A stretch of DNA of 64,000 bases from an uncultured Acidimicrobiales bacterium. GTDB taxonomy: Bacteria; Actinomycetota; Acidimicrobiia; Acidimicrobiales; Hopanoidiivorantaceae. The notes under the pieces were generated by a model. The model worked only from the letters and a program-made list of their open reading frames with translations. It did not search any database and was not told the origin of the DNA. Positions 8,224 to 26,841 of this stretch are shown here, one piece after another. Positions within the stretch are counted from its first letter, which is position 1. The number at the start of each line of letters is the position of its first letter. The position numbers and the translations under genes are program-made. The stretch covers positions 392,294 to 456,293 of the forward strand of contig OY282367.1 of the NCBI GenBank assembly GCA_958295755.1, written 5' to 3'.

Positions 8224-8274
8224 TCTCTCGCCATCAGCCCAGTGGCCAGTCCTTACGGCAGTTTGCTAAGACTA

Positions 8275-8280
8275 TATAAT
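8275..8280 (+). promoter_or_regulatory. -10 box of the second LRR gene
   Basis: A perfect TATAAT within GCTAAGACTATATAAT. The same 16 bases precede the third LRR gene. It places transcription start near 8287, between this box and the GGGAG ribosome-binding site before the ATG at 8306, which argues against the ATG at 8279 being the start. Confidence 0.6.
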
Positions 8281-8305
8281 GGGCATAGACGAAGGGAGCA
8301 ATGAA

Positions 8306-10444
8306 ATGTCGATTCAAGCTATTGAAGAACATAGCCAGCACAACCTATCGCGGTTGCTAGTAGATGGTACTAGCACAGCTGGGGGGGGGGTGTCGATGAG
8401 AGATTTTACGCGCGGTCTCTCGCGGCTAATAGTGGCTACCGTTGCCTTGGCTACGGTGGCTGCCGCTCTGGTTGGTGTTAGCTCACAGGTAGCTACAGCT
8501 CAGATCGCTGATCTTGATGCTGATCTCTGTGCGACTACATACAAGCCCTCTGCTGATGCTGGATCTCGGACAGAGGCGGACTGTCGCACGATAGTTGCTT
8601 GGCGCAACTCTGTTGTGAGCAATACGAATTCTGTTATCGGATCCACTCACGAGATGGCACTGTGGGGTGCTGGCAGCCAAGAAAAATTCAACACATGGGG
8701 CGGCCTTACGGTTTCTGATATTAATGGGGAACTCGTCATTACTGGAGTTGACCTTAGAAATAAGGGTTTAGCAGGTTCGCTTCCCGGAGAGCTACCAGAT
8801 TTGAAGGTGCTTCGGCTCAGGTCAAACTTTCTCACAGGAGAGTTGCCTGCCTGGGTCTATACTTCTACTTCATTGGAAATCTTAGAATTAGCATATAATC
8901 GGTTCAGTGGAGCTATAGCGGGTGAGCGCTTTAATGCTCCTGAGCTAGCCCATTTGATTCTTGGGGCAAATCGCTTTTCTGGGGCGTTGCCGAATTTCGA
9001 TTTAACTAAGTTACCGAAACTGAGAAATCTGGTTTTGAGCCGTAATCTATTATCAGGTTCGATCCCGGCTGGTTGGAGTGGCTTTGCTGACGGCAGGGGA
9101 ATGCAACGTCTAGATATTGCCTATAATAATATTTCAGGAAATCTGCCTGCGTGGATTTCCAATCTCAAATTCGCTGACTTTCCAGCACCAAGCTGGACAG
9201 CGTTTCGCCCATCATATTGGCATTACACTATTAATTGGCAAAATAATAGGATTTGCGTACCTGCTAGTTTGGTGATACCCGAGTATAGGAAACTCAACGG
9301 GACCGTTGGTCAAGTCGTAATGTATCTTGAACCGCAAAGATGCCCAGATAGTCGGGCGGGTATTATAAAGCCTGTAGAAAACCTACAGACTGAGGTAGTA
9401 GATGTGCAAGTAGATGCTAATGGGAGACCAGCTACTGACCAGTATGCGGGTGAGATGGTAGCAACTGTTAAGGGTCTCAGAGTCACTTGGGATAGGCCAG
9501 CAGACTTTTTACCAGAACAATCTTCCAATGTTAAGTGGTTGTATTCTGTGTGGTCGTATTTGAGTGTACCCACATCAGATAATGAAGTTCCTCAACAAGA
9601 CGGTTCTACGTTCTATAGATACTGTCCGCCAAATCTTCTCCGAGCAGGCACTCCATTTCTCACGACTGAAACAACATTTGAAGTCATAATAATTCGCAAT
9701 AACTGCTCTATAACAGATCCAAATACCCTTTATGACCCCACAAAATATACCGTTGATATCGCAACGACATTCGCCTTGAGAGTTCCATGGAGCCCAAGCG
9801 TTCCAATAATATATAACGCGGTAGTATATACCGGAGCGGTAGGAGTCCAAGGTCCTTGGGGTATTTATATGGCAGATGATGACCAAAAAACATACAGAGA
9901 TGTAGCTAATGTGGCACGCCTAGCCAATAATCTCAATATTTGGGTTTGGGATGCTGCCAACCAAATCTGGATAGAACGAGACCAACTAGACCAAGATTTT
10001 TCTTCGCTTAACTTAGACCCCGGGACAGCTCTAGCTTTCCAGAGGCGTGTGCCTCTCTCTTGGCTGGCTGAGGCTGGCTTGAGTACCGCAGATGAGGATA
10101 CGCCTGTTCAACTTGAAAACGGCTGGAATATCATCAGCGCAGGCGGCGATGCCACACGACCCTCAGGCAACACCGGTGCCTTCTTCATAGATGAAACCAC
10201 TCTCATAGACTGCGGCTCCTCACAGGGAGTTATCGCCATAATGCGATACAGTGCCAGAAGCGAAAGCTTTGACGCGGAGTTGCCGTGCCATCCAAGCGTT
10301 GAGGCAAGCTTGACAAGCAATCCGAATATCGGCACTATTGAAGAGATAGAAGAAGCAGACACTCTTTTCATGTACTTCAGATCGGTGCTGCCAGTAACAA
10401 TCCAATGGGACACCGACAAGTACGTCGTCCCCACCACTAGCTGA
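8306..10444 (+). CDS. exported LRR protein, plus-strand cluster copy 2 (upstream start in frame, ON state)
   Basis: A 712-residue protein if translation begins at the ATG at 8306, which has AGGGAG upstream. Residues 1-30 form an N-terminal extension (MSIQAIEEHSQ ... STAGGGVS), followed by the RDFTRGLSRL signal peptide cleaved after VATA. The extension is encoded through a G10 tract that keeps the frame. The mature part repeats copy 1: N-terminal Cys pair, LRRs (for example LVLSRNLLSGSIPAGW), a VTWDRPAD strand, WGIYMADDD, NIWVWDA and the GWNIISAGGDATRP domain ending at VVPTTS. A second start directly after the tract (ATG at 8396) could also be used. Likely surface-exposed; ligand unknown. Confidence 0.82.
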   Translation: MSIQAIEEHSQHNLSRLLVDGTSTAGGGVSMRDFTRGLSRLIVATVALATVAAALVGVSSQVATAQIADLDADLCATTYKPSADAGSRTEADCRTIVAWRNSVVSNTNSVIGSTHEMALWGAGSQEKFNTWGGLTVSDINGELVITGVDLRNKGLAGSLPGELPDLKVLRLRSNFLTGELPAWVYTSTSLEILELAYNRFSGAIAGERFNAPELAHLILGANRFSGALPNFDLTKLPKLRNLVLSRNLLSGSIPAGWSGFADGRGMQRLDIAYNNISGNLPAWISNLKFADFPAPSWTAFRPSYWHYTINWQNNRICVPASLVIPEYRKLNGTVGQVVMYLEPQRCPDSRAGIIKPVENLQTEVVDVQVDANGRPATDQYAGEMVATVKGLRVTWDRPADFLPEQSSNVKWLYSVWSYLSVPTSDNEVPQQDGSTFYRYCPPNLLRAGTPFLTTETTFEVIIIRNNCSITDPNTLYDPTKYTVDIATTFALRVPWSPSVPIIYNAVVYTGAVGVQGPWGIYMADDDQKTYRDVANVARLANNLNIWVWDAANQIWIERDQLDQDFSSLNLDPGTALAFQRRVPLSWLAEAGLSTADEDTPVQLENGWNIISAGGDATRPSGNTGAFFIDETTLIDCGSSQGVIAIMRYSARSESFDAELPCHPSVEASLTSNPNIGTIEEIEEADTLFMYFRSVLPVTIQWDTDKYVVPTTS
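8381..8390 (+). repeat. G10 homopolymer tract inside the leader of LRR copy 2
   Basis: Ten G between codons of the N-terminal extension and five bases before the signal-peptide ATG at 8396. With ten G the upstream ATG at 8306 is in frame (distance 90 bases); nine or eleven G would break it. Confidence 0.92.
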
Positions 10445-10492
10445 TCTCTCGCCATCAGCCCAGTGGCCAGTCCTTGAGGCAACTGTCGTAGA

Positions 10493-10500
10493 GGGGGGGG
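10493..10500 (+). repeat. G8 tract in the spacer upstream of the third LRR promoter
   Basis: Eight G lie in the noncoding spacer about 65 bases before the TATAAT at 10565. The spacer also holds a second degenerate copy of the GTGGCCAGTCCTTG segment seen before gene 2. A length change here could alter promoter geometry, or it may be a relic of a tract from a deleted gene copy. Confidence 0.7.
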
Positions 10501-10564
10501 CAGATCCAAACAGAACCCCGCGGCCAGAATGGTGGCCAATCCTTGCTGCACTTTGCTAAGACTA

Positions 10565-10570
10565 TATAAT
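10565..10570 (+). promoter_or_regulatory. -10 box of the third LRR gene
   Basis: TATAAT in the same GCTAAGACTATATAAT context as gene 2. The following 5' leader carries an inserted micro-repeat (ATAACATAAT and AATGGTATAACATAATGGTATAT) of about 40 bases before the shared AGACGAAGGGAGCAG ribosome-binding segment. Confidence 0.6.
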
Positions 10571-10632
10571 ATGCCAAGATAACATAATATAATGGTATAA
10601 CATAATGGTATATAGACGAAGGGAGCAGTGAA

Positions 10633-10818
10633 ATGTCGATTCAAGCTATTGAAGAACCTATTGCAGAACATAGCCAGCACAACTTCTCGGGTTTGCTAGT
10701 AGATGTTACTAGCACAACGGGGGGGGGTGTCGATGAGAGATTTTACGCGCGGTCTCTCGCGGCTAATAGTGGCTGCCGCTGCCTTGGCTACGGTGGCTGC
10801 CGCTCTGGTTGGTGTTAG
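10633..10818 (+). CDS. leader ORF out of frame with the third LRR gene
   Basis: The start is homologous to the in-frame start of gene 2 (MSIQAIEEP..AEHSQHN), with the same GGGAG ribosome-binding site and a 4-codon insertion. After the G9 tract it runs in the wrong frame and ends at 10818 inside the signal-peptide region. Eight (or eleven) G would restore a 680-residue fusion. I interpret it as the OFF-state 5' end of the LRR gene and not as a separate functional protein. Confidence 0.55.
   Translation: MSIQAIEEPIAEHSQHNFSGLLVDVTSTTGGGVDERFYARSLAANSGCRCLGYGGCRSGWC
10719..10727 (+). repeat. G9 homopolymer tract before LRR copy 3
   Basis: Nine G followed by TGTCG and the signal-peptide ATG at 10733. 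The distance from the upstream ATG to this ATG is 100 bases, so the upstream start is out of frame. Confidence 0.92.
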
Positions 10819-12676
10819 CTCACAGGTAGCTACTGCTCAGATCGCTGATCTTGATCCTGATCTTTGTGCGACCACATATAAGCCTTCTGTGGGTGCTGGA
10901 GATCGGACAGAGGCGGACTGTCGCACAATTGTAGCTTGGCGCAACTCTGTTGTGAACCACCCAGATTCTGTTATCGGAGCCACCCACACGCTGGCACTGT
11001 GGGGCACTGGTGGCCAAGTAAAATTCCACGCATGGGCCGGGCTTACGGTTGGTTATGTTAATGGGGAACGCGTTATTACTAAAGTTGGTATAGTGAGGCA
11101 GGGTCTAGCAGGTCCGCTTCCCGGAGAGCTACCAGATGTGCAGGTGTTTCGGCTTAGGTCAAACTTTCTTACAGGAGAGTTGCCTGCCTGGGTCTATGAT
11201 TCTGCCTCATTGGAAATCTTTGACGTTGCATACAATCAGCTCAGTGGGGCTGTAGTAGGTGAGCGCTTTGACGCTCCTGAGCTAGCCCATTTGTTTCTTG
11301 GCGGAAATCGCTTTTCTGGGGCGTTGCCGAATTTCGATTTAACTAAGCTGCCGAAACTGAGAAATCTGTATTTGACCCGTAATTTTTTCTCAGGTGCTAT
11401 CCCACGTGGTTGGAGGGACTTTGCTGACGGCAGAGGAATCCAGCGTATAGATATAGCATATAATAATATTTCAGGAAATCTGCCTTCATGGATTTCCGAC
11501 CTCAGATTCGCTAATGCTCCTGAGCCAAGCTGGACAGAGTTTAATCAAAATTATCCATACTCTCTTGCTTGGTCATATAACAAGCTTTGCATACCTTCTA
11601 ATTTTGCGATACCAGCATATAGGAAACTTAACAGGCAGTATGCTACTGTCGCAATGTATTTGGAACCTCAGAGATGCCCAAGTCGATCGCTATCAAGGCC
11701 TGTGGAAAATCTCCAGTTCGTGGCAGTAGATGCTGATGGGCAACCAACTGATGAGAATCCTGTAGGTCTAAAAGTAAGCTGGAGTAAACCCCAGGGCATG
11801 AATGGAGCAGCTTATAGTGTGTGGACATATTTGAATGTCCCACGAACAGAGAATGAAACTAGTACAAATGGTGTCATTACGTACGAGTACTGCCCGGGTT
11901 GGTATCTTCCGAAAGGCATTGCCTATACTGTTGATACAGAACTTTCAGTCACCATAACTGGAGCAGATTGTAGAGTAGCCACAGAGCAAGCTTTTGACCC
12001 CACAAAATATACTGTCGCTGTTGTACCGATAACTTACAATGGGAGAACTGCATATACTGGATATCATGGAATTTCAAATAATTGGGGTATTTATATGGCA
12101 GATGATGACCAAAAAACATATGCAGACGTTGACAGTGTGATGAGTCTTGGGCTTGATCGGAGCAATATTTGGGTTTGGGATGCTCTTAATCAAGTCTGGA
12201 TAGAAAGAAATCGAGAAGATCAAGATTTTGCCTCACGAAACTTAGAACCCGGCACCGCGCTAGCTGTCCGGAGGCGTGTGCCTCTCTCATGGCTGGCTCA
12301 GGCTGGCTTGAGTACCGCAGATGAGGACACGCCTGTCCAACTTGAAAACGGCTGGAATATCATCAGCGCAGGCGGCGATGCCACACGACCCTCAGGCAAC
12401 ACCGGTGCCTTCTTCATAGATGAAAACACTCTCATAGACTGCGGCTCCTCACAGGGAGCTATTGTTATTATGCGATACAGTGCCAGAAGTGAAAGCTTTG
12501 ACGCAGAGTTGCCGTGCCATCCAAGCGTTGAGGCAAACTTGACAAGCAATCCGAATATCGGCACTATTGAAGAGATAGAAGAAGCAGACACCCTTTTCAT
12601 CTATTTCAGATCGGTGCTACCAGTCACAATCCAATGGGACACCGCCAGTAGCAAATACATCCCCACCCTCAGCTGA
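10733..12676 (+). CDS. exported LRR protein, plus-strand cluster copy 3
   Basis: A 647-residue protein from the signal-peptide ATG (MRDFTRGLSRLIVAAAALAT, cut after VATA). It has the same architecture as copies 1 and 2 but is more diverged in the LRRs (LYLTRNFFSGAIPRGW) and is about 45 residues shorter in the middle beta region. The C-terminal region is nearly the same (NIWVWDALNQVW, GWNIISAGGDATRP, DCGSSQG, ELPCHPS). The frame-matched ATG at 10703 lacks a ribosome-binding site. In the present sequence the leader start is out of frame, so output depends on internal initiation or on tract slippage. Confidence 0.8.
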   Translation: MRDFTRGLSRLIVAAAALATVAAALVGVSSQVATAQIADLDPDLCATTYKPSVGAGDRTEADCRTIVAWRNSVVNHPDSVIGATHTLALWGTGGQVKFHAWAGLTVGYVNGERVITKVGIVRQGLAGPLPGELPDVQVFRLRSNFLTGELPAWVYDSASLEIFDVAYNQLSGAVVGERFDAPELAHLFLGGNRFSGALPNFDLTKLPKLRNLYLTRNFFSGAIPRGWRDFADGRGIQRIDIAYNNISGNLPSWISDLRFANAPEPSWTEFNQNYPYSLAWSYNKLCIPSNFAIPAYRKLNRQYATVAMYLEPQRCPSRSLSRPVENLQFVAVDADGQPTDENPVGLKVSWSKPQGMNGAAYSVWTYLNVPRTENETSTNGVITYEYCPGWYLPKGIAYTVDTELSVTITGADCRVATEQAFDPTKYTVAVVPITYNGRTAYTGYHGISNNWGIYMADDDQKTYADVDSVMSLGLDRSNIWVWDALNQVWIERNREDQDFASRNLEPGTALAVRRRVPLSWLAQAGLSTADEDTPVQLENGWNIISAGGDATRPSGNTGAFFIDENTLIDCGSSQGAIVIMRYSARSESFDAELPCHPSVEANLTSNPNIGTIEEIEEADTLFIYFRSVLPVTIQWDTASSKYIPTLS

Positions 12677-15157: not shown

Positions 15158-15694
15158 CTAAAGCTGCGCGGATATAGACCTCTCAGTCAGAGCTTGGATA
15201 GTATGGTCTGCTGCTTCTCTGCCCCATTGCTTGACGATCTCTGCTGGTGTTCCCCCTAGGGGGTGTGGCACAACTACAAAACGGGCACCTTCGGGGGCTG
15301 CTATTTTCAGGGTCTGAAGCGTAAGCTCTTCAAAAGCTGTGGTGGTGAATACCACGGTCGGAATCCCGGCTGCTTCCAGTTGTGCGAGATCGTGGACACT
15401 CCACGAAGTGCAAGAACCTCAATCCGCAGAGCCTGTCAAAACGGCCTGCACCTCCTTGGAGAGCTCTGTGATAGTTTCAGCCTCAGCTGGCAAAGCGGCA
15501 TTCTTTGACTTCACACACACCAGCTCAGCCCCAGTGCGACTAACAATATGTTCCGCCGCCGCTTCCAGCAATGTGTCGGCGTGAGGTTTGTTATTAGCCA
15601 GAATGCCCAGCTTGGCACCTTGTAAGGAAGCAAGCGGTGAGGCGAGCAACTGGGGCAAAACCCCAGTACTACCGACAGGTGAATAAATCTTCAT
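15158..15694 (-). CDS. UGSC-family selenoprotein (in-frame UGA read as selenocysteine)
   Basis: A 178-residue protein if the in-frame TGA at 15419-15421 is read as selenocysteine. The two halves are in the same frame with no other stop between them. Around the TGA the protein reads LTGSAD-U-GSCTSWSVHD, the UGSC motif that names this (seleno)protein family, followed by LEAAGIPTVVFTT and VVPHPLGG, also typical. A hairpin matching bacterial SECIS rules lies just downstream. Function is unknown; the U/C-GSC redox motif suggests thiol/selenol chemistry. A TATAAT ends eight bases before ATG and no Shine-Dalgarno is seen, so the mRNA may be leaderless. It follows the nitroreductase by 27 bases. Selenocysteine machinery is not in this window. 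Confidence 0.85.
15390..15406 (-). promoter_or_regulatory. bacterial SECIS-like hairpin
   Basis: On the minus strand TCGTGG-AGTGT-CCACGA forms a perfect six-pair stem with a five-base loop. The loop begins 18 bases after the UGA and its second base is G, satisfying the published bacterial SECIS pattern (apical loop of 3-14 bases, G within its first two bases, 16-37 bases from UGA). Confidence 0.75.
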
Positions 15695-15721: not shown

Positions 15722-16300
15722 TTAGCTCTGTAGGTATTTGCCCCATCTATTCCAGTGCACAACCTGATGCCTGCGGGGGAGTTTAGCAGATTGGCTGGGT
15801 CTATCACCTGATCCCTGCCACCCAAGTGCTACACCGCCAAGGGGGTACACTCCTTCAGGCAGTCCAAGAAATTCGCTCACAGCTTGGGTTCGCTCAAAGA
15901 ATCCGAAGAATAGAGCACCGAGACCTCGGTTCGTAGCCAGAAGCAACAAGTTCTGAGTGGCAAAAGCGCAATCCACATACCAATAGGGCACTGCCCAGTT
16001 GTTGAGATCTTTGCCGAGATCGGTTTGGGCTTTGTCAGATTCGCTGTAGCGGGCAAGGTAACGCTCGGTGTTAGCCACCGGCACCACCACAACTGGCGCA
16101 CGCAACAGCCCTGGCCAGGCGAAGACATCGCGTTTTTCTGCTGGCAGTGTCAAATCCCATAGCTCAGCTACGCGCTCTCCCTCCAACACCACAAACTCAG
16201 TCCCCTGAGAATTGCCAGCACTCGGAGCTCGCCGAGCTAGCTCCAGCATCTCACTTATTACATCAGTTGGAATTGGTCCGCTGAGAAAGTCTCGCGTCAT
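15722..16300 (-). CDS. nitroreductase-family protein
   Basis: A 192-residue FMN-dependent nitroreductase-fold protein, predicted to reduce nitro groups, quinones or related acceptors with NAD(P)H. The ARRAPSAGNSQGTEFVVL segment and the AFATQNLLLLATNRGLGALFFG helix (residues about 110-132) are characteristic. The first ATG falls late: the family start EDAIASRRMTRDF lies partly upstream, in frame, back to 16348-16354, where only ATT could serve as start before a TAG at 16358. The true start is therefore uncertain. Fragments of this 5' end are repeated three times further upstream between the LRR genes. Confidence 0.82.
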   Translation of the reverse strand: MTRDFLSGPIPTDVISEMLELARRAPSAGNSQGTEFVVLEGERVAELWDLTLPAEKRDVFAWPGLLRAPVVVVPVANTERYLARYSESDKAQTDLGKDLNNWAVPYWYVDCAFATQNLLLLATNRGLGALFFGFFERTQAVSEFLGLPEGVYPLGGVALGWQGSGDRPSQSAKLPRRHQVVHWNRWGKYLQS

Positions 16301-16403
16301 TCGCCGCGAGGCAATAGCGTCTTCTAAGCTTTGGTTTGGTTTTTCAATGAGAATAGTCTAAGAGGCCATAGTCTAAGAGGCCACAGCCTAGAGGCGCAGT
16401 CTA

Positions 16404-18485
16404 TTAGCTAGTGGGTAATTTGTATTTGTTTTCGCCTGCGTCCCAAACGATGTTCACAGGGAGAACAGAGCTGAAGTATACGAATAAGCTGTCGTATTCT
16501 TCTAGCTCTTCAATGGTGTCCATATTGCCTCTAGCTGTAAGAGCAGCTTCAGCACTTGGGTGACACGGCAGTTCTGGATCAAATTGCCCGGTGCGAGAAG
16601 TATAGCGTAAAACTACAAGCACTCCTGTATTTGAGTCACAGTCCAAGAGGCTGATATCATCAAAGAAGAAAGCACCGTCATCGTCATCTGGGCGTGTGGC
16701 ATCGCCTCCTGCGCTGATCATATTCCAGCCATTTGAAATCTGAATGGGCAAGTCTTCGTCTGCTGAGCTTAGACCAGCAACGGCTAGCCAAGCAGGCGGG
16801 CGACTAGCTTGGGTTATGATGGCTGTTCCTGGTTCTAGGTAGACAGAATCCAATGAGAGGTCTGCTAGTGCCCATTGGACCCAATCCTGGTTATTTGCAT
16901 CCCATGAATAGTAACCATTGTTGAGAGACAGACCAATCTTGAAGCCGATGTCTTGCACAGACCTTCGTTCTTTGACTTGCACTATATTCCAGCCTGATTC
17001 TACACCTGTCGGTCCCGTGTAGCTATTGGCGCGAAAGCCGTCGGCTCTAGGGCCACCTACCTCATAGATAGTGCGGATAGCGACGGCGAACTTATTGGGA
17101 TCAAACCGGCAATTATTATCCGGATTAGTATCAACATTATTCGGATGAGTATCAGGGTCTATTGTGGCACTCATAAATCCGTTACTATCTGGTGGGTTGG
17201 TTGCCTCCGTTACATCCAGATTACAGTATTCACCAAGACTGACCGTATCGTCTATTTGATCTGGTACGAGCTTCGCAGGACGCACCCAGTATATGTAGCC
17301 CGAGCCGCTGAGAGGTTTCCACGAGACTCTTAGGGCATTGTCGTTTGACGGAGGAATTTCATACTGCATGTCAGTTACTGGAGGGGGTGAATAAATGGAG
17401 TCATTCTCCTTGGTCGGACACCTGTTACGAACGAAGTCCACCTGAACTGAAGCAGCTGTTGTAGTACCGGCCTCATATAGGGTTGGCATAGTGAAGCCGT
17501 CGGGGATGCATAAACGGTTACCTGCGAAGCTCATGCGATTTCTGAACTTATTCCAAATCTTTCCGGTGCTTCCGAACTTGACATTTTTAACCCAGTCAGG
17601 AATGTCCCCAGTTAATCGATTTACGGCTAGGTTCAGATCTTTGATTGCTCGCCCATCTGCAAAAGCACTATACCCGGCCGGGATAGGACCTGTAAAAGCG
17701 TTGCCATTGAGTCGCAGATATGTAAGTCCAGTATTTATGGCTTGGCCCAATGAATCTCTGAATTTAAAATCAGGCAAGCTACCGCGGAAAGCATTATTAC
17801 TCAAATTCACCAATCGTAGTTTTGTGGAAAGAAATCTCTGGCCATCCACGGTGCCTGAAAGGGCAGATCCTCCTAGCTGAAGAATATTCAAGCTAGGGAG
17901 ATTATAAATCCATTCTGGGAATTCTCCAGTGAAACGATTGCCAGTAAAATAAACAGCTGTTAGATCTCTAAAAAGGTTTGAATCGGTACCCGGGGTGCCG
18001 GGGTCATCCACATTCAGGTTGGGGATTGGTCCATATAGATAGGCACCCCAATTTCTGTTTTGCCGACCATTACGTTGTACCCAATGTGAAATATTTATTT
18101 GACGAACCAGGAATGGACTGCCAGAGACATCTAAGCCTAGCCAATTGTTCATTCTTCTTGCATCTCCGGTGCCCGTGCCCCACTGGGCAATGTTATGGAG
18201 TGCTAAGTTTGAATGTCCTTCATAGGCAAATATATCGTTACGGAACTTCACCAGCGCCTTGCATTGGGCCACTGTGAGATCTGTAGTTCTACCATCTTCG
18301 GGCTTGTAGCCATCGGTGCTTTCACACAGGCTGGCATCAAGCATATTAGGAGCTTGTGCAACAGCCTGCTGTGAGCTGACGGCGGTGAAGCTTGTTGCAG
18401 CTACAGCTAGCACCAGCAGGGATACAAGAAGGAAGGCTGATCTTCCTTTGGGGGTAGTCGAAGTGGCTTGTGCATGATGTGACAC
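16404..18485 (-). CDS. exported LRR protein A, minus-strand cluster (tract between SD and start)
   Basis: A 693-residue secreted protein starting at GTG. The signal peptide covers about residues 1-44 (GRSAFLLVSLLVLAVAATS ... QQAVAQA). Next come the N-terminal Cys pair, plant-type LRRs (for example LNLAVNRLTGDIPDWV) around residues 140-300, and a beta-rich region containing WKPLSGSGYIYWV. The C-terminal region is shared with the plus-strand cluster: GWNIVQV, YYSWDANNQDW, GWNMISAGGDATRP, LDCDSNTG, ELPCHPS. The strong Shine-Dalgarno AAGGAGGA is separated from GTG by a run of ten C, so tract length sets the spacing. The first 683 residues are identical to protein B; only the C-terminal tail (GENKYKLPTS) differs. 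Likely cell-surface; function unknown. Confidence 0.85.
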   Translation of the reverse strand: MSHHAQATSTTPKGRSAFLLVSLLVLAVAATSFTAVSSQQAVAQAPNMLDASLCESTDGYKPEDGRTTDLTVAQCKALVKFRNDIFAYEGHSNLALHNIAQWGTGTGDARRMNNWLGLDVSGSPFLVRQINISHWVQRNGRQNRNWGAYLYGPIPNLNVDDPGTPGTDSNLFRDLTAVYFTGNRFTGEFPEWIYNLPSLNILQLGGSALSGTVDGQRFLSTKLRLVNLSNNAFRGSLPDFKFRDSLGQAINTGLTYLRLNGNAFTGPIPAGYSAFADGRAIKDLNLAVNRLTGDIPDWVKNVKFGSTGKIWNKFRNRMSFAGNRLCIPDGFTMPTLYEAGTTTAASVQVDFVRNRCPTKENDSIYSPPPVTDMQYEIPPSNDNALRVSWKPLSGSGYIYWVRPAKLVPDQIDDTVSLGEYCNLDVTEATNPPDSNGFMSATIDPDTHPNNVDTNPDNNCRFDPNKFAVAIRTIYEVGGPRADGFRANSYTGPTGVESGWNIVQVKERRSVQDIGFKIGLSLNNGYYSWDANNQDWVQWALADLSLDSVYLEPGTAIITQASRPPAWLAVAGLSSADEDLPIQISNGWNMISAGGDATRPDDDDGAFFFDDISLLDCDSNTGVLVVLRYTSRTGQFDPELPCHPSAEAALTARGNMDTIEELEEYDSLFVYFSSVLPVNIVWDAGENKYKLPTS

Positions 18486-18495
18486 GGGGGGGGGG
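18486..18495 (-). repeat. C10 tract (G10 on plus strand) between Shine-Dalgarno and GTG of LRR A
   Basis: Ten C on the coding strand immediately precede the GTG start; AAGGAGGA occupies 18496-18503. The genes at 23264 and 25726 have only five C at the corresponding place. Confidence 0.9.
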
Positions 18496-18590
18496 TCCTC
18501 CTTAGTCGTTTGCTTGTTTTAGTATCTGCTTGATTAGCACTATAGCGTTAGTGTTGCAGTATTTGCACTTTATTATATATTCTCTAGCTT

Positions 18591-18806
18591 CAGGGGCGGC
18601 ATCGGCGGCGACAAACTCAATCCCTTGAGAGTTGCCAGCACTCGGATCTCGCCGAGCTAGCTCCAGCATCTAACATCAGTTGGAATTGGTTCGCTGAGAA
18701 AGTCTCGCGTCATTCGCCGCGAGACAATAGCGTCTTCTAAGCTTTGGTTTGGTTTTTCAATGAGAATAGTCTAAGAGGCCACAGTCTAAGAGGCGCAACC
18801 TATTAG
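18591..18806 (-). pseudogene. chimeric relic: formylglycine-enzyme fragment plus nitroreductase 5' fragment
   Basis: In the 321-base spacer upstream of LRR A, bases 18591-18607 (CAGGGGCGGCATCGGCG) resemble the repetitive insert of the formylglycine-generating enzyme gene near 26028-26070. Bases 18611-18780 closely match the nitroreductase 5' region at about 16190-16370, with small deletions and substitutions that break the frame. The promoter-proximal part (18496-18590) holds the Shine-Dalgarno and TATAAT/TATAGT-like boxes on the minus strand. Confidence 0.75.
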
Positions 18807-20882
18807 CTATTGGGTAATGTATTTGTTGTTCGTGGCGTCCCAAACGATGTTCACAGGGAGAACAGAGCTGAAGTATACGAATAAGCTGTCGTATTCTTCT
18901 AGCTCTTCAATGGTGTCCATATTGCCTCTAGCTGTAAGAGCAGCTTCAGCACTTGGGTGACACGGCAGTTCTGGATCAAATTGCCCGGTGCGAGAAGTAT
19001 AGCGTAAAACTACAAGCACTCCTGTATTTGAGTCACAGTCCAAGAGGCTGATATCATCAAAGAAGAAAGCACCGTCATCGTCATCTGGGCGTGTGGCATC
19101 GCCTCCTGCGCTGATCATATTCCAGCCATTTGAAATCTGAATGGGCAAGTCTTCGTCTGCTGAGCTTAGACCAGCAACGGCTAGCCAAGCAGGCGGGCGA
19201 CTAGCTTGGGTTATGATGGCTGTTCCTGGTTCTAGGTAGACAGAATCCAATGAGAGGTCTGCTAGTGCCCATTGGACCCAATCCTGGTTATTTGCATCCC
19301 ATGAATAGTAACCATTGTTGAGAGACAGACCAATCTTGAAGCCGATGTCTTGCACAGACCTTCGTTCTTTGACTTGCACTATATTCCAGCCTGATTCTAC
19401 ACCTGTCGGTCCCGTGTAGCTATTGGCGCGAAAGCCGTCGGCTCTAGGGCCACCTACCTCATAGATAGTGCGGATAGCGACGGCGAACTTATTGGGATCA
19501 AACCGGCAATTATTATCCGGATTAGTATCAACATTATTCGGATGAGTATCAGGGTCTATTGTGGCACTCATAAATCCGTTACTATCTGGTGGGTTGGTTG
19601 CCTCCGTTACATCCAGATTACAGTATTCACCAAGACTGACCGTATCGTCTATTTGATCTGGTACGAGCTTCGCAGGACGCACCCAGTATATGTAGCCCGA
19701 GCCGCTGAGAGGTTTCCACGAGACTCTTAGGGCATTGTCGTTTGACGGAGGAATTTCATACTGCATGTCAGTTACTGGAGGGGGTGAATAAATGGAGTCA
19801 TTCTCCTTGGTCGGACACCTGTTACGAACGAAGTCCACCTGAACTGAAGCAGCTGTTGTAGTACCGGCCTCATATAGGGTTGGCATAGTGAAGCCGTCGG
19901 GGATGCATAAACGGTTACCTGCGAAGCTCATGCGATTTCTGAACTTATTCCAAATCTTTCCGGTGCTTCCGAACTTGACATTTTTAACCCAGTCAGGAAT
20001 GTCCCCAGTTAATCGATTTACGGCTAGGTTCAGATCTTTGATTGCTCGCCCATCTGCAAAAGCACTATACCCGGCCGGGATAGGACCTGTAAAAGCGTTG
20101 CCATTGAGTCGCAGATATGTAAGTCCAGTATTTATGGCTTGGCCCAATGAATCTCTGAATTTAAAATCAGGCAAGCTACCGCGGAAAGCATTATTACTCA
20201 AATTCACCAATCGTAGTTTTGTGGAAAGAAATCTCTGGCCATCCACGGTGCCTGAAAGGGCAGATCCTCCTAGCTGAAGAATATTCAAGCTAGGGAGATT
20301 ATAAATCCATTCTGGGAATTCTCCAGTGAAACGATTGCCAGTAAAATAAACAGCTGTTAGATCTCTAAAAAGGTTTGAATCGGTACCCGGGGTGCCGGGG
20401 TCATCCACATTCAGGTTGGGGATTGGTCCATATAGATAGGCACCCCAATTTCTGTTTTGCCGACCATTACGTTGTACCCAATGTGAAATATTTATTTGAC
20501 GAACCAGGAATGGACTGCCAGAGACATCTAAGCCTAGCCAATTGTTCATTCTTCTTGCATCTCCGGTGCCCGTGCCCCACTGGGCAATGTTATGGAGTGC
20601 TAAGTTTGAATGTCCTTCATAGGCAAATATATCGTTACGGAACTTCACCAGCGCCTTGCATTGGGCCACTGTGAGATCTGTAGTTCTACCATCTTCGGGC
20701 TTGTAGCCATCGGTGCTTTCACACAGGCTGGCATCAAGCATATTAGGAGCTTGTGCAACAGCCTGCTGTGAGCTGACGGCGGTGAAGCTTGTTGCAGCTA
20801 CAGCTAGCACCAGCAGGGATACAAGAAGGAAGGCTGATCTTCCTTTGGGGGTAGTCGAAGTGGCTTGTGCATGATGTGACAC
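18807..20882 (-). CDS. exported LRR protein B, near-identical copy of A
   Basis: A 691-residue protein with the same GTG start, AAGGAGGA Shine-Dalgarno and ten-C spacer as LRR A. It is identical in sequence to A for 683 residues and then ends in TNNKYITQ. That tail is shared with protein C, which indicates that the duplication breakpoint lies in the conserved 3' end and arose by unequal exchange between 3' ends. Domains are as in A: signal peptide, LRRs, beta region, GWNMISAGGDATRP C-terminal domain. Two loci with the same protein but independent tracts could give dosage control or a template for gene conversion. Confidence 0.85.
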   Translation of the reverse strand: MSHHAQATSTTPKGRSAFLLVSLLVLAVAATSFTAVSSQQAVAQAPNMLDASLCESTDGYKPEDGRTTDLTVAQCKALVKFRNDIFAYEGHSNLALHNIAQWGTGTGDARRMNNWLGLDVSGSPFLVRQINISHWVQRNGRQNRNWGAYLYGPIPNLNVDDPGTPGTDSNLFRDLTAVYFTGNRFTGEFPEWIYNLPSLNILQLGGSALSGTVDGQRFLSTKLRLVNLSNNAFRGSLPDFKFRDSLGQAINTGLTYLRLNGNAFTGPIPAGYSAFADGRAIKDLNLAVNRLTGDIPDWVKNVKFGSTGKIWNKFRNRMSFAGNRLCIPDGFTMPTLYEAGTTTAASVQVDFVRNRCPTKENDSIYSPPPVTDMQYEIPPSNDNALRVSWKPLSGSGYIYWVRPAKLVPDQIDDTVSLGEYCNLDVTEATNPPDSNGFMSATIDPDTHPNNVDTNPDNNCRFDPNKFAVAIRTIYEVGGPRADGFRANSYTGPTGVESGWNIVQVKERRSVQDIGFKIGLSLNNGYYSWDANNQDWVQWALADLSLDSVYLEPGTAIITQASRPPAWLAVAGLSSADEDLPIQISNGWNMISAGGDATRPDDDDGAFFFDDISLLDCDSNTGVLVVLRYTSRTGQFDPELPCHPSAEAALTARGNMDTIEELEEYDSLFVYFSSVLPVNIVWDATNNKYITQ

Positions 20883-20892
20883 GGGGGGGGGG
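20883..20892 (-). repeat. C10 tract before the GTG of LRR B
   Basis: Same length and position as the tract before LRR A. Equal lengths suggest either very recent duplication or a length that is favoured at both loci. Confidence 0.9.
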
Positions 20893-20987
20893 TCCTCCTT
20901 AGTCGTTTGCTTGTTTTAGTATCTGCTTGATTAGCACTATAGCGTTAGTGTTGCAGTATTTGCACTTTATTATATATTCTCTAGCTT

Positions 20988-21203
20988 CAGGGGCGGCATC
21001 GGCGGCGACAAACTCAATCCCTTGAGAGTTGCCAGCACTCGGATCTCGCCGAGCTAGCTCCAGCATCTAACATCAGTTGGAATTGGTTCGCTGAGAAAGT
21101 CTCGCGTCATTCGCCGCGAGACAATAGCGTCTTCTAAGCTTTGGTTTGGTTTTTCAATGAGAATAGTCTAAGAGGCCACAGTCTAAGAGGCGCAACCTAT
21201 TAG
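20988..21203 (-). pseudogene. second chimeric relic of flanking genes
   Basis: The spacer upstream of LRR B is the exact positional copy (plus 2397) of the relic at 18591-18806: a short formylglycine-enzyme-like piece, then a broken nitroreductase 5' end. Together with the promoter-proximal part at 20893-20987 it accounts for the whole 321-base spacer. Confidence 0.75.
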
Positions 21204-23264
21204 CTATTGGGTAATGTATTTGTTGTTCGTGGCGTCCCAAACGATGTTCACAGGGAGAACAGAGCTGAAGTATACGAATAAGCTGTCGTATTCTTCTATC
21301 TCTTCAATGGTGTCCATATCGCCTCTAGCTGCAAGAGCAGCTTCGGCACTTGGGTGACACGGCAGTTCTGCATCAAATTGCCCGGTGCGAGAACTATAGC
21401 GTAAAACAACAAGCACTCCTCTATTTGAGTCACATTGAGAGAGGCTGTCATCAAAGAAGAAAGCAGCGTCATCGTCATCTGGGCGTGTGGCATCGCCTCC
21501 TGCGCTGATCATATTCCAGCCATTTGACATCTGAATGGGCAAGTTTTCGTCAGCTGAGCTTAGACCGGCAACGGCTAGCCAAGCAGGCGGGCGACTAGCT
21601 CGGGTTATGATAGCTGTTCCTGATTCTAGGTAGACAGAGTCCAGTGAGAGGTCTTCTAGTGCCCATTGGACCCACTCCTGGTTATCTGCATCCCATGAAT
21701 GGTATCTACCGCTGAGAGACAGACCAATCTTGAAGCCGATGTCTTGTACAGCCCTTCGTTCTTTGACTTGTACTATATTCCAGCCTGATTCTATACCTGT
21801 CTCTCCCATGTAGGCATTGGCGTAGTTGTAGTCGGCTCTAGGGCCGCCTACCTCATAGATAGTGCGGACAGCGACCGCGAACTTATTGGGATCAAACCGG
21901 CAATTCGGAGTCCGCTGACTTCCTATTGTAGCACTGATAAATCCGTTACTATCTGGTGCGCTAGTTACCTCCTGAGCACAGACGTCACCATGACTGACCG
22001 TAGCGTCTATTTGATCCGGTACGAGCTTCACAGGAAGCACCCAGTACAGGTAGCCCGAGCCGCTGGCAGGAGGTTTCCACGAGACTACTAGTTCATTTTC
22101 GTCGAGCGGAGAAATTTCATACTGCAGGTCAGTTACTGGATTGGGTGCATAAATGGAGTCATTCTTTTTGGTCTGACACCTGTTACGAGAGAAGTCCACC
22201 TGAACTGAAGCAACTGTTGTAGTCCCGGCCTCATATAGGGTTGGCATAGTGAAGCCGTCGGGGATGCATAAACGGTTACCTGCGAAGCTCATGCGATTTA
22301 CGAAAAAACTCGAAACATTTTCTGCCCTACTTCTGAAACTTCTGAACTTGACATTTTTAACCCAGTCAGGAATGTCCCCAGTTAATCGATTTGCGGCTAG
22401 TTGCAGATCCCACACTGCTCGCCCATCGGCAAAAGCACTATACCCGGCCGGGATAGGACCTGTAAAAGCGTTGCTATCGAGCCGCAGAAGTACCAATCCG
22501 GTATTTATGGCTTGGCCCAATGAATTTCTGAATTTAAAATCAGGCAAGCTACCGTGGAAAGCATTACCAGCCAAATTCACCCTATGTAGGTCTGTGGCAA
22601 GAAATCTCTGGCCATCCACGGTGCCTGAAAGGGAGCCTACTTCTAGCTCAAGAATATTCAAGCCAGGGAGATTATAAATCCATTCTGGGAATTCTCCAGT
22701 GAAACGATTGCCAGTAAAATAAACCCTTCTTAGATCTCTAAAAAGGTTTGAATCGGTACCCGGGGTGCCGGGGTCATCCACATTCAGGGTGGGCATTGGT
22801 CCATATAGATAGGCATTCTTAGATCTGTTTTCGTTTTGCTTAGTACGATCAGGTGTGAACCAATGTGAAATATTTATTTCATGAACCTGGAATGGAGTGC
22901 CAAACATCCCTATGCCTTGCCAGCTGTTCATTCTTCTTGCCTCTTCGGTGCCCGTGCCCCACGTGGCAATGTTATGGGCTGCTAAGTTTTGATGTCCTTC
23001 ATAGGCAAATATATCGTTACGGAACTTCACCAGTGCCTTGCATTGGGCCACTGTGAAATCTGTAGTTCTAGGATCGACGGGCTTGTACCCAGTGGTGGTT
23101 TCACACAGGCTGGCATCAAGCATATCCGGTGCTTGTGCTACAGCCTGCTGTGAGCTGACGGCGGTGAAGCTTGTTGCAGCTACAGCTAGCACAAGCAGGG
23201 TTCCAAGCAGGAAGGCTGGTCTTTTTTGGGTGGTAGTCGAAGTGGCTTGTAGATAATGTGCCAT
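21204..23264 (-). CDS. exported LRR protein C (no long tract, probable constitutive copy)
   Basis: A 686-residue protein starting at ATG. The Shine-Dalgarno AGGAGG lies ten bases upstream and only five C occur in the spacer, so this copy should not switch readily. Signal peptide about residues 1-44 (KRPAFLLGTLLVLAVAATS ... AVAQA). LRRs, beta region and C-terminal domain follow the family, with clear divergence from A and B in the concave LRR positions and in loops (for example an insertion RSRAENVSSF). The conserved Cys pattern is kept (LCETTTGY ... AQC; RLCIP ... RCQ; QCDSNRG ... LPCHPS). Probably surface-exposed. Confidence 0.85.
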   Translation of the reverse strand: MAHYLQATSTTTQKRPAFLLGTLLVLAVAATSFTAVSSQQAVAQAPDMLDASLCETTTGYKPVDPRTTDFTVAQCKALVKFRNDIFAYEGHQNLAAHNIATWGTGTEEARRMNSWQGIGMFGTPFQVHEINISHWFTPDRTKQNENRSKNAYLYGPMPTLNVDDPGTPGTDSNLFRDLRRVYFTGNRFTGEFPEWIYNLPGLNILELEVGSLSGTVDGQRFLATDLHRVNLAGNAFHGSLPDFKFRNSLGQAINTGLVLLRLDSNAFTGPIPAGYSAFADGRAVWDLQLAANRLTGDIPDWVKNVKFRSFRSRAENVSSFFVNRMSFAGNRLCIPDGFTMPTLYEAGTTTVASVQVDFSRNRCQTKKNDSIYAPNPVTDLQYEISPLDENELVVSWKPPASGSGYLYWVLPVKLVPDQIDATVSHGDVCAQEVTSAPDSNGFISATIGSQRTPNCRFDPNKFAVAVRTIYEVGGPRADYNYANAYMGETGIESGWNIVQVKERRAVQDIGFKIGLSLSGRYHSWDADNQEWVQWALEDLSLDSVYLESGTAIITRASRPPAWLAVAGLSSADENLPIQMSNGWNMISAGGDATRPDDDDAAFFFDDSLSQCDSNRGVLVVLRYSSRTGQFDAELPCHPSAEAALAARGDMDTIEEIEEYDSLFVYFSSVLPVNIVWDATNNKYITQ

Positions 23265-23394
23265 TGGGGGATGTCCTCCTAGTCGTTTACTTGTTTTGGT
23301 TCTCTTGATTAGCAGTATAGTTTTAGCGTTGCAGTATTTGTGCCATATTATCCATTCCCTAAATTATCCACTCTCTAACTTTAGCATATGTGGT

Positions 23395-23625
23395 TCACCT
23401 TAAGCAAGTCTATCTTGCAATGCAGCGCAAGCCCAGGTGGTTGGTGGCGGTTTCGGACGATTGGGGGATGCGGGCGGCAGGGCACTTGAGGAGTGCTAGA
23501 TTGCTGAGAATTTGATTGGTTCGCTGAGAAAGTCTCGCGTCATTCGCCGCGAGGCAATAGCACTTTCTAAGCTTTGGTTTATTGATGGTTTTTCAATGAG
23601 AATAGTCTAAGAGGCAAGTCTCCTA
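23395..23625 (-). pseudogene. third chimeric relic (formylglycine-enzyme 3' end joined to nitroreductase 5' end)
   Basis: Within the 373-base spacer upstream of LRR C, bases 23395-23484 match the 3' end of the formylglycine-enzyme gene and its downstream region (25842-25931). They are joined at a GGCAGGG microhomology to a piece matching about 26107-26138, and then from about 23517 to a shortened nitroreductase 5' region ending in the ATAGTCTAAGAGGC segment. All pieces are noncoding now. The first part of the spacer (23265-23394) is the LRR C leader and promoter region. Confidence 0.78.
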
Positions 23626-23637
23626 GCTAGTGGATTC

Positions 23638-25572
23638 CTAGCTAGGGGATACTGTGTATTTGTTGTTCGTGGCGTCCCAAACGATGTTCACAGGGAGAAC
23701 AGAGCTGAAGTATACGAATAAGCTGTCGTATTCTTCTAGCTCTTCAATGGTGTCCATATTGTCTCTAGCTGTAAGAGCAGCTTCGGCACTTGGGTGACAC
23801 GGCAGTTCTGCATCAAATTGCCCGGTGCGAGAACTATAGCGTAAAACAACAAGCACTCCTGTATTAGAGCCACAGCCAGAGAGGCTGGTATCAAAGAAGA
23901 AAGCACCGTCATCGTCATCTGGGCGTGTGGCATCGCCTCCTGCGCTGATCATATTCCAGCCATTTGAAATCTGAATGGGCAAGTTTTCGTCCGCTGAGCT
24001 TAGACCGGCAACGGCTAGCCAAGCAGGCGGGCGACTAGCTCGGGTTATGATAGCTGTTCCTGGTTCTAGGTAGACAGAGTCCAGTGAGAGGTCTTCTAGT
24101 GCCCATTGGACCCACTCCTGGTTATCTGCATCCCATGAATGGTATCTACCGCTGAGACGCATACCAATCTTGAAGCCGATGTCTTGCACAGACCTTCGTT
24201 CTTTGACTTGCACTATATTCCAGCCTGATTCTATACCTGTCTCTCCCATGTAGGCATTGGCGTAGTTTAAGTCGACTCTAGAGCCGCCTACCCCATAGAT
24301 AACACCTACCTCATAGATAGTACGGATAGCGACGGCGAACTTATTGGGATCAAACCGGCAGCTATCATTCCAATGAGTATCATCGTCTATTGTGACACTC
24401 ATAAATCCGTTACTATCTGGTGAGTTAGTTGCCTCCGTTACCTCCAGAGAACATTGTTCACCATGACTGACCGTAGCGTCTATTTGATCTGGTACGAGCT
24501 TCACAGGAAGCACCCAGTACAGGTGGCCCGGGCCGCTATGAGGTTTCCACGAGACTTTTAGGGCATTGTCGTTTGACAGAGGAATTTCATACTGCAGGTC
24601 AGTTACTGGATTGGGTGCATAAATGGAGTCGTTCTTCTTGGTCTGACACCTGTTATCAGCGAAGTCCACCTGAACTGAAGCAACTGTTGTAGTACCGGCC
24701 ACATATAGGGTTGGCATAGTGAAGCCGTCGGGGATGCATAAACGGTTACCTGCGAAGCTCATGCGAGTTTTGAAATAAGGTATAATATCTCTTCCGGTGC
24801 TTGTGAACTTGACATTTTTAACCCAGTCAGGAATGTCCCCAGTTAATCGATTTGCGGCTAGGCTCAGATCTTTCACTGCTCGCCCATCGGCAAAAGCACT
24901 ATACCCGGCCGGGATAGGACCTGTAAAAGCGTTGCCATCGAGCCTCAAATTGACCAATCCGGTATTTATGGCCTCGCCCAATGAATCTCTGAATTTAAAA
25001 TCAGGCAAGCTACCGTGGAAAGCATTACCAGCCAAATTCACCAATTGTAGGTCTGTGGCAAGAAATCTCTGGCCATCTACGGTGCCTGAAAGGGCAAGTT
25101 CTAGATCAAGAAGATTCAAGCCAGGGAGATTATAAATCCATTCTGGGAATTCTCCAGTGAAACGATTGCCAGTCAAATGAACCCTTCTTAGATCTCTAAA
25201 AAGGTTTGAATCGGTACCCGGGGTGCCGGGGTCGTCCACATTAAGGTTGGGGATTGGTCCATGTAGATAGGCACCCCTATATCTGTTTTGCTGACCATTA
25301 CGTTCTTTCCAATGTGAAATATTTAGTTCATGAACCTGGAATGGACTGCCAGCCATAGTTATGCCTATCCACTGGTTCATTCTTCTTGCCTCTTCGGTGC
25401 CCGTGCCCCACTGGGCTATGGTATGGCGTGCTAAGTTTTGATGTCCTTCATAGGCAAATATATCGTTACGGAACTTCACCAGTGCCTTGCATTGGGCCAC
25501 TGTGAAATCTGTAGTTCTATGATCGACGGGCTTGTAGCCATCGGTGCTTTCACACAGGCTGGCATCAAGCAT
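23638..25572 (-). CDS. LRR protein D, mature part; frame broken by a C10 tract (OFF state)
   Basis: The open frame from 25572 encodes the complete mature LRR protein (644 residues: LDASLCESTDGYKP N-terminus, LRRs, beta region, GWNMISAGGDATRP domain, tail TNNKYTVSPS) but has no signal peptide of its own. The signal peptide lies just upstream in another frame, separated by a run of ten C. Losing one C would restore a 695-residue precursor reading QATPPPANMLDASLC across the junction, matching QAPNMLDASLC in A. The downstream frame is intact over 1.9 kb with no stops, which argues for a reversible switch and against decay. Confidence 0.82.
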   Translation of the reverse strand: MLDASLCESTDGYKPVDHRTTDFTVAQCKALVKFRNDIFAYEGHQNLARHTIAQWGTGTEEARRMNQWIGITMAGSPFQVHELNISHWKERNGQQNRYRGAYLHGPIPNLNVDDPGTPGTDSNLFRDLRRVHLTGNRFTGEFPEWIYNLPGLNLLDLELALSGTVDGQRFLATDLQLVNLAGNAFHGSLPDFKFRDSLGEAINTGLVNLRLDGNAFTGPIPAGYSAFADGRAVKDLSLAANRLTGDIPDWVKNVKFTSTGRDIIPYFKTRMSFAGNRLCIPDGFTMPTLYVAGTTTVASVQVDFADNRCQTKKNDSIYAPNPVTDLQYEIPLSNDNALKVSWKPHSGPGHLYWVLPVKLVPDQIDATVSHGEQCSLEVTEATNSPDSNGFMSVTIDDDTHWNDSCRFDPNKFAVAIRTIYEVGVIYGVGGSRVDLNYANAYMGETGIESGWNIVQVKERRSVQDIGFKIGMRLSGRYHSWDADNQEWVQWALEDLSLDSVYLEPGTAIITRASRPPAWLAVAGLSSADENLPIQISNGWNMISAGGDATRPDDDDGAFFFDTSLSGCGSNTGVLVVLRYSSRTGQFDAELPCHPSAEAALTARDNMDTIEELEEYDSLFVYFSSVLPVNIVWDATNNKYTVSPS

Positions 25573-25726
25573 ATTGGCGGGGGGGGGGTGTGGCTTGTGC
25601 TACAGCCTGCTGTGAGCTGACGGCGGTGAAGCTTGTTGCAGCTACAGCTAGCACCAGCAGGGATACAAGAAGGAAGGCTGATCTTTTTTGGGTGGTAGTC
25701 GAAGTGGCTTGTGGATAATGTGCCAT
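25565..25726 (-). CDS. signal-peptide ORF of LRR D (truncated product in the present frame)
   Basis: Starts at ATG with AGGAGGAC nine bases upstream, exactly as in LRR C. It encodes a 53-residue peptide: the family signal peptide (KRSAFLLVSLLVLAVAATS ... AVAQA), then TPPPRQYA encoded by the C tract, then TGA. Alone it would be only a secreted stub. It is the 5' part of the same gene as 23638-25572. Confidence 0.75.
   Translation of the reverse strand: MAHYPQATSTTTQKRSAFLLVSLLVLAVAATSFTAVSSQQAVAQATPPPRQYA
25579..25588 (-). repeat. C10 tract at the signal-peptide/mature junction of LRR D
   Basis: Ten C on the coding strand within codons just after the predicted signal peptidase site. The two ORF parts are offset by 154 bases (1 mod 3); nine C would put them in frame. 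Confidence 0.92.
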
Positions 25727-25857
25727 TGGGGGATGTCCTCCTAGTCGTTTACTTGTTTTAGTATCTGCTTGATTAGCAGTGTAGCTTTAGCGTTGCAGCA
25801 TTTGCGCCATATTATCCATTCTCTGACTTTAGCATATGTGGTTCACCTTAAGCAAAT

Positions 25858-26841
25858 CTATCTTGCAATGCAGCGCAAGCCCAAGTGGTTGGTGGCGGTT
25901 TCGGACGATTGGGGGATACGGGCGGCAGGGCGGAAGCGAGTGCAGTAGTTTTCGGCGCACAGGAAAGAGCCGCCTTTGATGACTCGGACGACAAGATGGT
26001 TGACAGCTTGGGGTGTGCCTTTGTCAGGGGCGGCATCAGTGCCAGGGGCGGTGTTGTCAGGGACGGCATCGGCGAAGGTATCAGTGCCAGGTGGCATGCA
26101 GCAGGGGACTTGAGGAGTGCTAGATTGCTGAGAATTTGATTGCTGAGAATCTATATCGTGGCGAGGGTGCCATATGTCTGAGGTCCATTCCCAGACTGAG
26201 CCACACATGTCGTAAAGACCGTAGCCATTAGGGGGGAAGGTGCCTGCTGGGGTGGGCATTGGGAGGTGAGGTTTGCGATTGTCCCAAGGGAAGGTGCCGT
26301 ACCAGTAGTTGGCCATGCGGTGGCCGGCGGGGGCGATATGGTTGCCCCAAGCATAGGTTGCTCCTTGAATGCCACCTCGTGCGGCGTGCTCCCACTGCGT
26401 CTCGGTGGGGAGTAGCTTGTTTGCCCAGTTAGCATAAGCCAGGGCATCGGCGTAGTCTATGTGCACGACTGGATGGTGGTCTAGCCCTTCTATTGTGCTG
26501 TTAGGGCCGTTTGGGTGTCGCCAGTTGGCATCGGGCACATATTGCCACCAAGTTGGATGACTGAGATCCACTGGCCCCTCTGGTGCCACGAACACAGCCG
26601 AGCCGGCCACTAGCCCAGGCACATCGGGGAGGTCGACTTGGTCGGGTGCTATCTCGGCGTTGGTTATATGACCTGTCTCTTCCACGAATATGGCGAACTG
26701 AGCGTTGGTTACTGGGTGGATGTCCATCCAAAACCCTGTCACTTCTACCTCGTGGGCGGGGCGTTCCTCTGGATAGTGATGGTCTGAGCCGATGAGTGAT
26801 TTGCCGCCTGGTATCCATACCATGCCTGGCGGGGGGATCAT
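25858..26841 (-). CDS. formylglycine-generating enzyme (sulfatase-modifying factor)
   Basis: A 327-residue FGE/SUMF1-type protein that converts the Cys of a CxPxR motif in sulfatases to formylglycine. Diagnostic segments: FWMDIHPVTNAQFAIF near residue 40, LPTETQWEHAARGG near 143, NGYGLYDMCGSVWEWTSD near 205, and the catalytic pair in KGGSFLCAENYC near 292. Between the Trp-rich motif and the active site is an insert with low-complexity repeats (GTDTFADAVPDNTAPGTDAAPD). Its obvious client is the sulfatase 53 bases upstream on the same strand. The LRR cluster begins directly downstream, and fragments of this gene's 3' end are scattered through the LRR spacers. Confidence 0.93.
   Translation of the reverse strand: MIPPPGMVWIPGGKSLIGSDHHYPEERPAHEVEVTGFWMDIHPVTNAQFAIFVEETGHITNAEIAPDQVDLPDVPGLVAGSAVFVAPEGPVDLSHPTWWQYVPDANWRHPNGPNSTIEGLDHHPVVHIDYADALAYANWANKLLPTETQWEHAARGGIQGATYAWGNHIAPAGHRMANYWYGTFPWDNRKPHLPMPTPAGTFPPNGYGLYDMCGSVWEWTSDIWHPRHDIDSQQSNSQQSSTPQVPCCMPPGTDTFADAVPDNTAPGTDAAPDKGTPQAVNHLVVRVIKGGSFLCAENYCTRFRPAARIPQSSETATNHLGLRCIAR

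Follow-up and report, generated by a model that had tools for sequence, protein, structure and literature searches.

An array of four LRR genes separated by relics of both flanking genes in an uncultured Acidimicrobiales bacterium

The window analysed here is a stretch of 64,000 nucleotides (C1:392294-456293) from a genome that consists of a single contig of 2.29 Mb. Its minus strand encodes, in order, a sulfatase (29276-26895), a gene with an FGE-sulfatase domain (FGE), four LRR genes designated D, C, B and A, and a nitroreductase-family gene (NR), beyond which follow a UGSC-family gene, tRNA-Arg(CCT) and an acyltransferase (Table 1). The NR reading frame, with homology to other nitroreductases, runs on upstream of its ATG (16301-16345, minus strand; EKPNQSLEDAIASRR) without ATG, GTG or TTG; possibly an ATT serves as the start, or the original start was lost. 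The UGSC-family gene (15158-15694, minus strand) has an in-frame TGA ahead of GSC and is likely a selenoprotein; SelB is encoded in the genome and scores above the curated cut-off. Across the acyltransferase from the array lies a second LRR cluster of three genes (6121-12676, plus strand), which a sibling genome lacks; no flank-gene relics were found in this cluster, the spacers of which match only each other and LRR genes.

Table 1. Features of the LRR array and related loci (window positions, except for the last row, which refers to C1)
Feature	Position	Strand	Remarks
FGE-sulfatase-domain gene	25858-26841	-	Intact upstream neighbour, donor of 3' relics; PF03781, 248 bits
LRR gene D	23638-25726	-	Mature part (ORF 23638-25572) not in frame with signal-peptide part
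LRR gene C	21204-23264	-	
LRR gene B	18807-20882	-	A body and C tail
LRR gene A	16404-18485	-	
NR, nitroreductase-family gene	15722-16300	-	Intact downstream neighbour; PF00881, 79.8 bits
NR 5' relic, spacer D/C	23515-23615	-	Equals NR 16272-16366 plus 6-nt insert
FGE inner relic, spacer D/C	23480-23518	-	Equals 26104-26142; joint J1 at CAAT
FGE 3' end and FGE-LRR leader relic, spacer D/C	23363-23483	-	Equals 25811-25931; joined to inner piece at CCCTGC
NR 5' relic, spacer C/B	21008-21191	-	Equals NR 16191-16381 with 7-nt deletion
18-nt FGE scrap, spacer C/B	20987-21004	-	Equals 26057-26074; joint J2
FGE-LRR leader copy upstream of B	20900-20963	-	Blast
NR 5' relic, spacer B/A	18611-18794	-	Blast
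18-nt FGE scrap, spacer B/A	18590-18607	-	Blast and shuffles
67-nt crossover tract	18835-18901 (B); 16438-16504 (A); 21232-21298 (C)	-	
C10 tract of A	18486-18495	-	Between ribosome site and GTG start
C10 tract of B	20883-20892	-	Between ribosome site and GTG start
C10 tract of D	25579-25588	-	In coding 5' part
G/C homopolymer tracts	6111-6119; 8381-8390; 10719-10727		At the three plus-strand LRR genes
Giant open frames	about 168-209, 211-229, 586-603, 818-842 and 1621-1657 kb		This genome

The spacers were compared with both neighbouring genes by blast and by repeat finding. In the sense of the genes each of the three consists of an LRR stop, a scrap of the NR 5' end, a scrap of the FGE 3' part, the FGE-LRR leader and the start of the next LRR gene, which confirms the claim of a first-pass annotation that relics of both flanking genes occupy the spacers. 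The spacer before C, D/C (23265-23637), carries an NR 5' relic of 101 columns (90% including a 6-nt insert) [E 2e-31], an inner FGE piece of 42 nt (98%; extent 39-45 nt) [3e-17], and the FGE 3' end with the leader (207 columns, 87%) [2e-55], of which about 70 nt are the end of FGE up to its stop codon, followed by the leader. The other two spacers, C/B and B/A, show no difference from one another; their NR 5' relic covers 191 columns (92%) [6e-74] and is frameshifted by a 7-nt deletion, and their FGE-LRR leader spans 64 nt (91%). That each spacer combines an FGE fragment with a broken NR 5' end, as had also been proposed, stands, but the FGE part is tiny before B and A, 18 nt as against more than 100 nt before C. 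This 18-nt scrap scored 15 in FGE, the best shuffle 13 and the best GC-rich control 12, so that it exceeded 1000 of 1000 dinucleotide shuffles and as many of 1000 GC-rich window segments; since no shuffle reached its score it is not a chance match. The sulfatase gave no blast match longer than 9 nt in the spacers, and the units therefore began inside FGE.

One might ask whether the relics were kept for a function, such as a promoter, leader or insulator for each LRR gene. Every copy does retain the FGE-LRR leader and ribosome site; the NR and FGE pieces, however, vary in length and boundaries from spacer to spacer and carry frameshifting indels, and a simple consensus scan found no promoter-like site in the spacers. 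We consider such a function very unlikely.

Two different non-homologous joints connect NR with FGE, each with little or no homology. At J1, NR (ACCAAT|TCC) and FGE (AGCAAT|CAAAT) were joined to give ACCAATCAAAT, with a 4-nt microhomology, CAAT. At J2, NR GAGTTTGT was joined to FGE ..CGCCGATGCC with an overlap of about 1 nt, at most 1 nt being clear microhomology, and with 3 extra nt; this insert is unexplained and counts against the scheme proposed below. The suggestion that GGCAGGG (CCCTGCC) was a microhomology joining NR to FGE had to be abandoned: the CCCTGC(C) match joins two FGE sites and is the scar of a deletion of about 175 nt within FGE. The FGE scraps are thus cut internally, and one NR relic has lost 7 nt, as is seen in amplicon remodelling. 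Alternatively, each complex joint might have arisen in one replication template-switch event, running from NR to FGE and on to a second FGE site, with no later deletion. J1 does have two short-homology joints close by (CAAT and CCCTGC), as this would predict, but ordinary later deletion explains the joints equally well, and amplicon remodelling is documented to include loss of co-amplified DNA (PMC8763031); we therefore regard template switching as somewhat unlikely.

The copies lie head to tail in a single orientation, spaced by 2361-2473 nt depending on the stretch compared, and in every spacer the downstream end of the unit is fused to its upstream end, NR then FGE. This order, in sense orientation in all three spacers, indicates tandem duplication of a unit that began within FGE and ended within NR; the order FGE-LRR-NR was therefore present before amplification, and growth was stepwise. 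The same order and orientation between the copies support the earlier proposal of a stepwise amplification that included both flanks.

Taken as a whole, the array very probably grew from one FGE-LRR-NR arrangement in at least three steps. First, a non-homologous tandem duplication would have joined a point some 110 nt into the NR ORF to FGE at about 26.06 kb, creating J2 and the arrangement FGE-L1-(NR'|FGE')-L2-NR. L1 would then have been copied to give D and C by a second duplication, which began at CAAT in FGE, ended at CCAAT in the NR scrap and created J1. Third, C and A would have undergone homologous unequal crossover at their 3' ends, within the identical 67-nt tract, so that the C tail, the spacer and A were copied and B was produced. 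Later deletions presumably trimmed the FGE scraps, one of them at CCCTGC, and selection may have kept the copies, which encode putatively secreted LRR proteins and would then have diversified at their predicted binding face. The joints and their arrangement in the spacers, the 67-nt tract and the A/C hybrid are seen directly in the sequence; we infer the enzymology of these steps, the order of the first two and the retention of the copies by selection.

The third step has left a hybrid gene. At an offset of 2397 nt the sequence is identical over 16438-18901 (2464 nt, zero differences), so that the repeat overlaps itself by 67 nt; the A/B and B/C identities likewise share 67 nt. Up to this tract B is the same as A, and thereafter the same as C, spacer included, with the breakpoint inside the identical tract. 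This is what unequal crossover of C and A at their 3' ends produces; it requires no new non-homologous joint and accounts for two spacers being identical. The view that every step was a duplication including the flanks accordingly applies to the two joints and not to this last step, an LRR-LRR homologous crossover in which the relic was merely carried along. The absence of any difference in 2464 nt could also raise suspicion that the A/B repeat (2397 bp) is an assembly error; A and B differ, however, in their 3' tails and downstream sequence, so that simple doubling of reads would not suffice, and the contig is a single 2.29-Mb piece. An artefact here is very improbable.

J2 is probably older than J1, because C resembles D more closely than it does A. 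Nucleotide differences amount to 8.7% for D-C, 9.7% for D-A and 11.6% for C-A, and in block bootstraps D-C was smaller than C-A in 999 of 1000 replicates; that D-C was also smaller than D-A, as in 809 of 1000, is a weak part of the argument. The reverse, with J1 (D/C) formed first and J2 later through duplication of the C side, draws on this last figure and on D being as similar to A as to C in many 100-nt windows. It predicts that C and A should be the closest pair, whereas they are the most distant one, and the FGE stretch required for J2 falls within the segment deleted from the D/C spacer; we think this order unlikely. The D/C NR relic shows the same distance, 4/95, to the C/B relic as to intact NR, so that either may have been its donor. 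Ordering the joints by shared changes in the NR relics was tried and rejected; there is one shared change (a GAA versus GGA codon), and it is probably ancestral because homologues often have E or D there.

The one genome of the same genus that was compared, G001, has a collinear neighbourhood (60-83% protein identity) in the order sulfatase, FGE, Fic-domain gene, tRNA-Arg, acyltransferase, luciferase-like gene and onwards. Between FGE and tRNA-Arg it has neither LRR gene nor NR, the Fic-domain gene being the single gene there; its NR lies near dnaE. In the dnaE block of the present genome there is a gap of about 100 nt in place of NR, and no remains of NR were found there beyond 14 matching nt at the border of the adjacent gene. 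The position of NR thus differs between the two species, so that FGE-LRR-NR describes the situation immediately before amplification, and for the present lineage only; the ancestral order that the first-pass annotation had proposed holds in that sense, given the order of the relics, and not as an older state. A single-LRR intermediate was sought with FGE across genome contigs, where the best matches had 45-48% identity and none was a close relative, and with LRR in 298 genomes of the order, where only G001 exceeded LRR-motif similarity; nor was it found in 59 relatives searched with LRR, NR and FGE, or in viral contigs. Self-blast of sibling arrays gave no obvious flank relics.

The interval from FGE to tRNA-Arg is evidently a variable slot, occupied in the sibling by the Fic gene, and one could imagine that LRR copies were inserted singly, as a mobile cassette carrying scraps of flanks. 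There are, however, no inverted repeats within 15.0-27.5 kb, and the scraps match exactly the two genes flanking the array itself and are absent elsewhere in this genome and in 20 relatives, which makes insertion extremely improbable.

Under the duplication scheme the scraps provide a neutral yardstick of the same age as the copies they separate. J1-age relic DNA differs at 8 of 232 sites and LRR genes C and D at 165 of 1884 (p = 0.003); the J2-age NR relic differs at 7 of 169, and A and C at 217 of 1892 (p = 0.002). The LRR copies have thus diverged two to three times more than relic DNA from the same events, and since constraint on intact NR and FGE would at most halve the relic figure, the LRR genes change at least as fast as neutral DNA. 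Point estimates of overall dN/dS among C, D and A are 1.18-1.28. Synonymous LRR divergence is likewise above the relic level, so that, besides selection, conversion from other copies may contribute and blur the dating.

The proteins have LxxLxLxxNxLxGxIP repeats and a predicted solenoid fold of the plant ectodomain type, and give LRR_1 matches and a profile match to plant LRR ectodomains; in the predicted model of C the LRR part has pLDDT mostly above 80, and Foldseek finds plant LRR ectodomains with E about 1e-8. In five repeats, positions 2, 3, 5, 7 and 8 of LxxLxLxx are variable in 18 of 25 cases against 5 of 55 elsewhere, although the p value of 2.5e-8 is optimistic, these positions having been picked after viewing the alignment and guided by the plant xxLxLxx pattern (PMC3113787). 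Codons of the xxLxLxx face show 41 amino-acid-changing and 4 synonymous differences in 75 comparisons, as against 9 and 6 in 163 comparisons outside those positions. The modelled strands of C (residues 180-182, 204-206, 228-230, 259-261 and 286-288) coincide, as expected, with the predicted concave face. By the relic yardstick this suggests diversification of a putative binding surface in a bacterial LRR protein.

A diversity-generating retroelement was also considered as a source of the variation and was ruled out, there being no reverse transcriptase: neither this genome nor G001 gave an RVT_1 match, the positive control being detected. No clear adenine bias was seen in the variable columns (A 165/280, G 154/280).

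Ten poly-G/C 9-mer matches, representing six tracts, occur in the window against a chance mean of 0.4, and all six homopolymers of at least 9 nt are situated at the 5' ends of LRR genes. In D the C10 breaks the frame between signal peptide and mature protein, and a tract one shorter reads through. The tracts, placed in this one assembly as expected of contingency loci, suggest phase variation and make these genes candidates for such loci; they could include sequencing errors. Genome-wide there are about 110 poly-G/C 9-mer matches, many near ORF starts. Many other ORFs, giant ones included, have similar tracts at their 5' ends or close by, both here and in G001, and C1:925000-944000 holds two opposed arrays of genes of about 350 aa, many of which carry G/C tracts of 9-10 nt in their 5' portion.

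As in the poly-G/C contingency loci of Campylobacter (PMC6321876), runs of 9-10 G/C are found here within surface-protein genes or at their starts; the host, however, belongs to a distant bacterial group, and the tracts are known from one assembly. Experiments on gene amplification describe joints without homology, changes in copy number and the loss of co-amplified genes (PMC8763031, PMC11721125). The array resembles such segmental tandem duplication and amplicon remodelling, known from innovation-amplification-divergence, in its head-to-tail copies, in the little or no homology at the joints of unit ends, in the later homologous change of copy number and in the deletion of co-amplified neighbour genes. 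Unlike those cases it is a natural fossil with copies diverged by 9-12%, a unit of about 2.4 kb holding one complete gene, and two independent non-homologous joints at the same gene. It is a natural, partly diverged case of a known process, and the mechanism is not new; what is added here is that the copies then appear to have changed mainly at the predicted binding surface.

With plant NBS-LRR clusters such as coffee SH3 (PMC3113787) the array shares tandem LRR genes, unequal crossover, hybrid copies and amino-acid diversification at the x residues of xxLxLxx. The bacterial protein differs in being (by prediction) secreted and without kinase or NBS domain, and in having four copies; this is a likeness and not membership by sequence. 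Tentatively, and with rather more doubt than conviction, we would see in the array a bacterial counterpart of a plant resistance-gene cluster, that is, a receptor-like LRR surface family spread by flank-to-flank duplication, reshuffled by crossover, diversified at xxLxLxx faster than its relics and switched on and off by poly-C tracts. If this is true, each duplication carries its own neutral clock in the form of the relics.

Neighbouring genes that are copied along in an amplification usually disappear soon afterwards (supported by PMC8763031), and natural arrays therefore rarely show their joints. Here both kinds can be read, non-homologous and then homologous, and the yardstick result makes the binding targets of the LRR proteins a testable question. 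Giant open frames of 6001 to 20112 aa elsewhere in the genome include stretches with about 25-35% identity to these LRR proteins.
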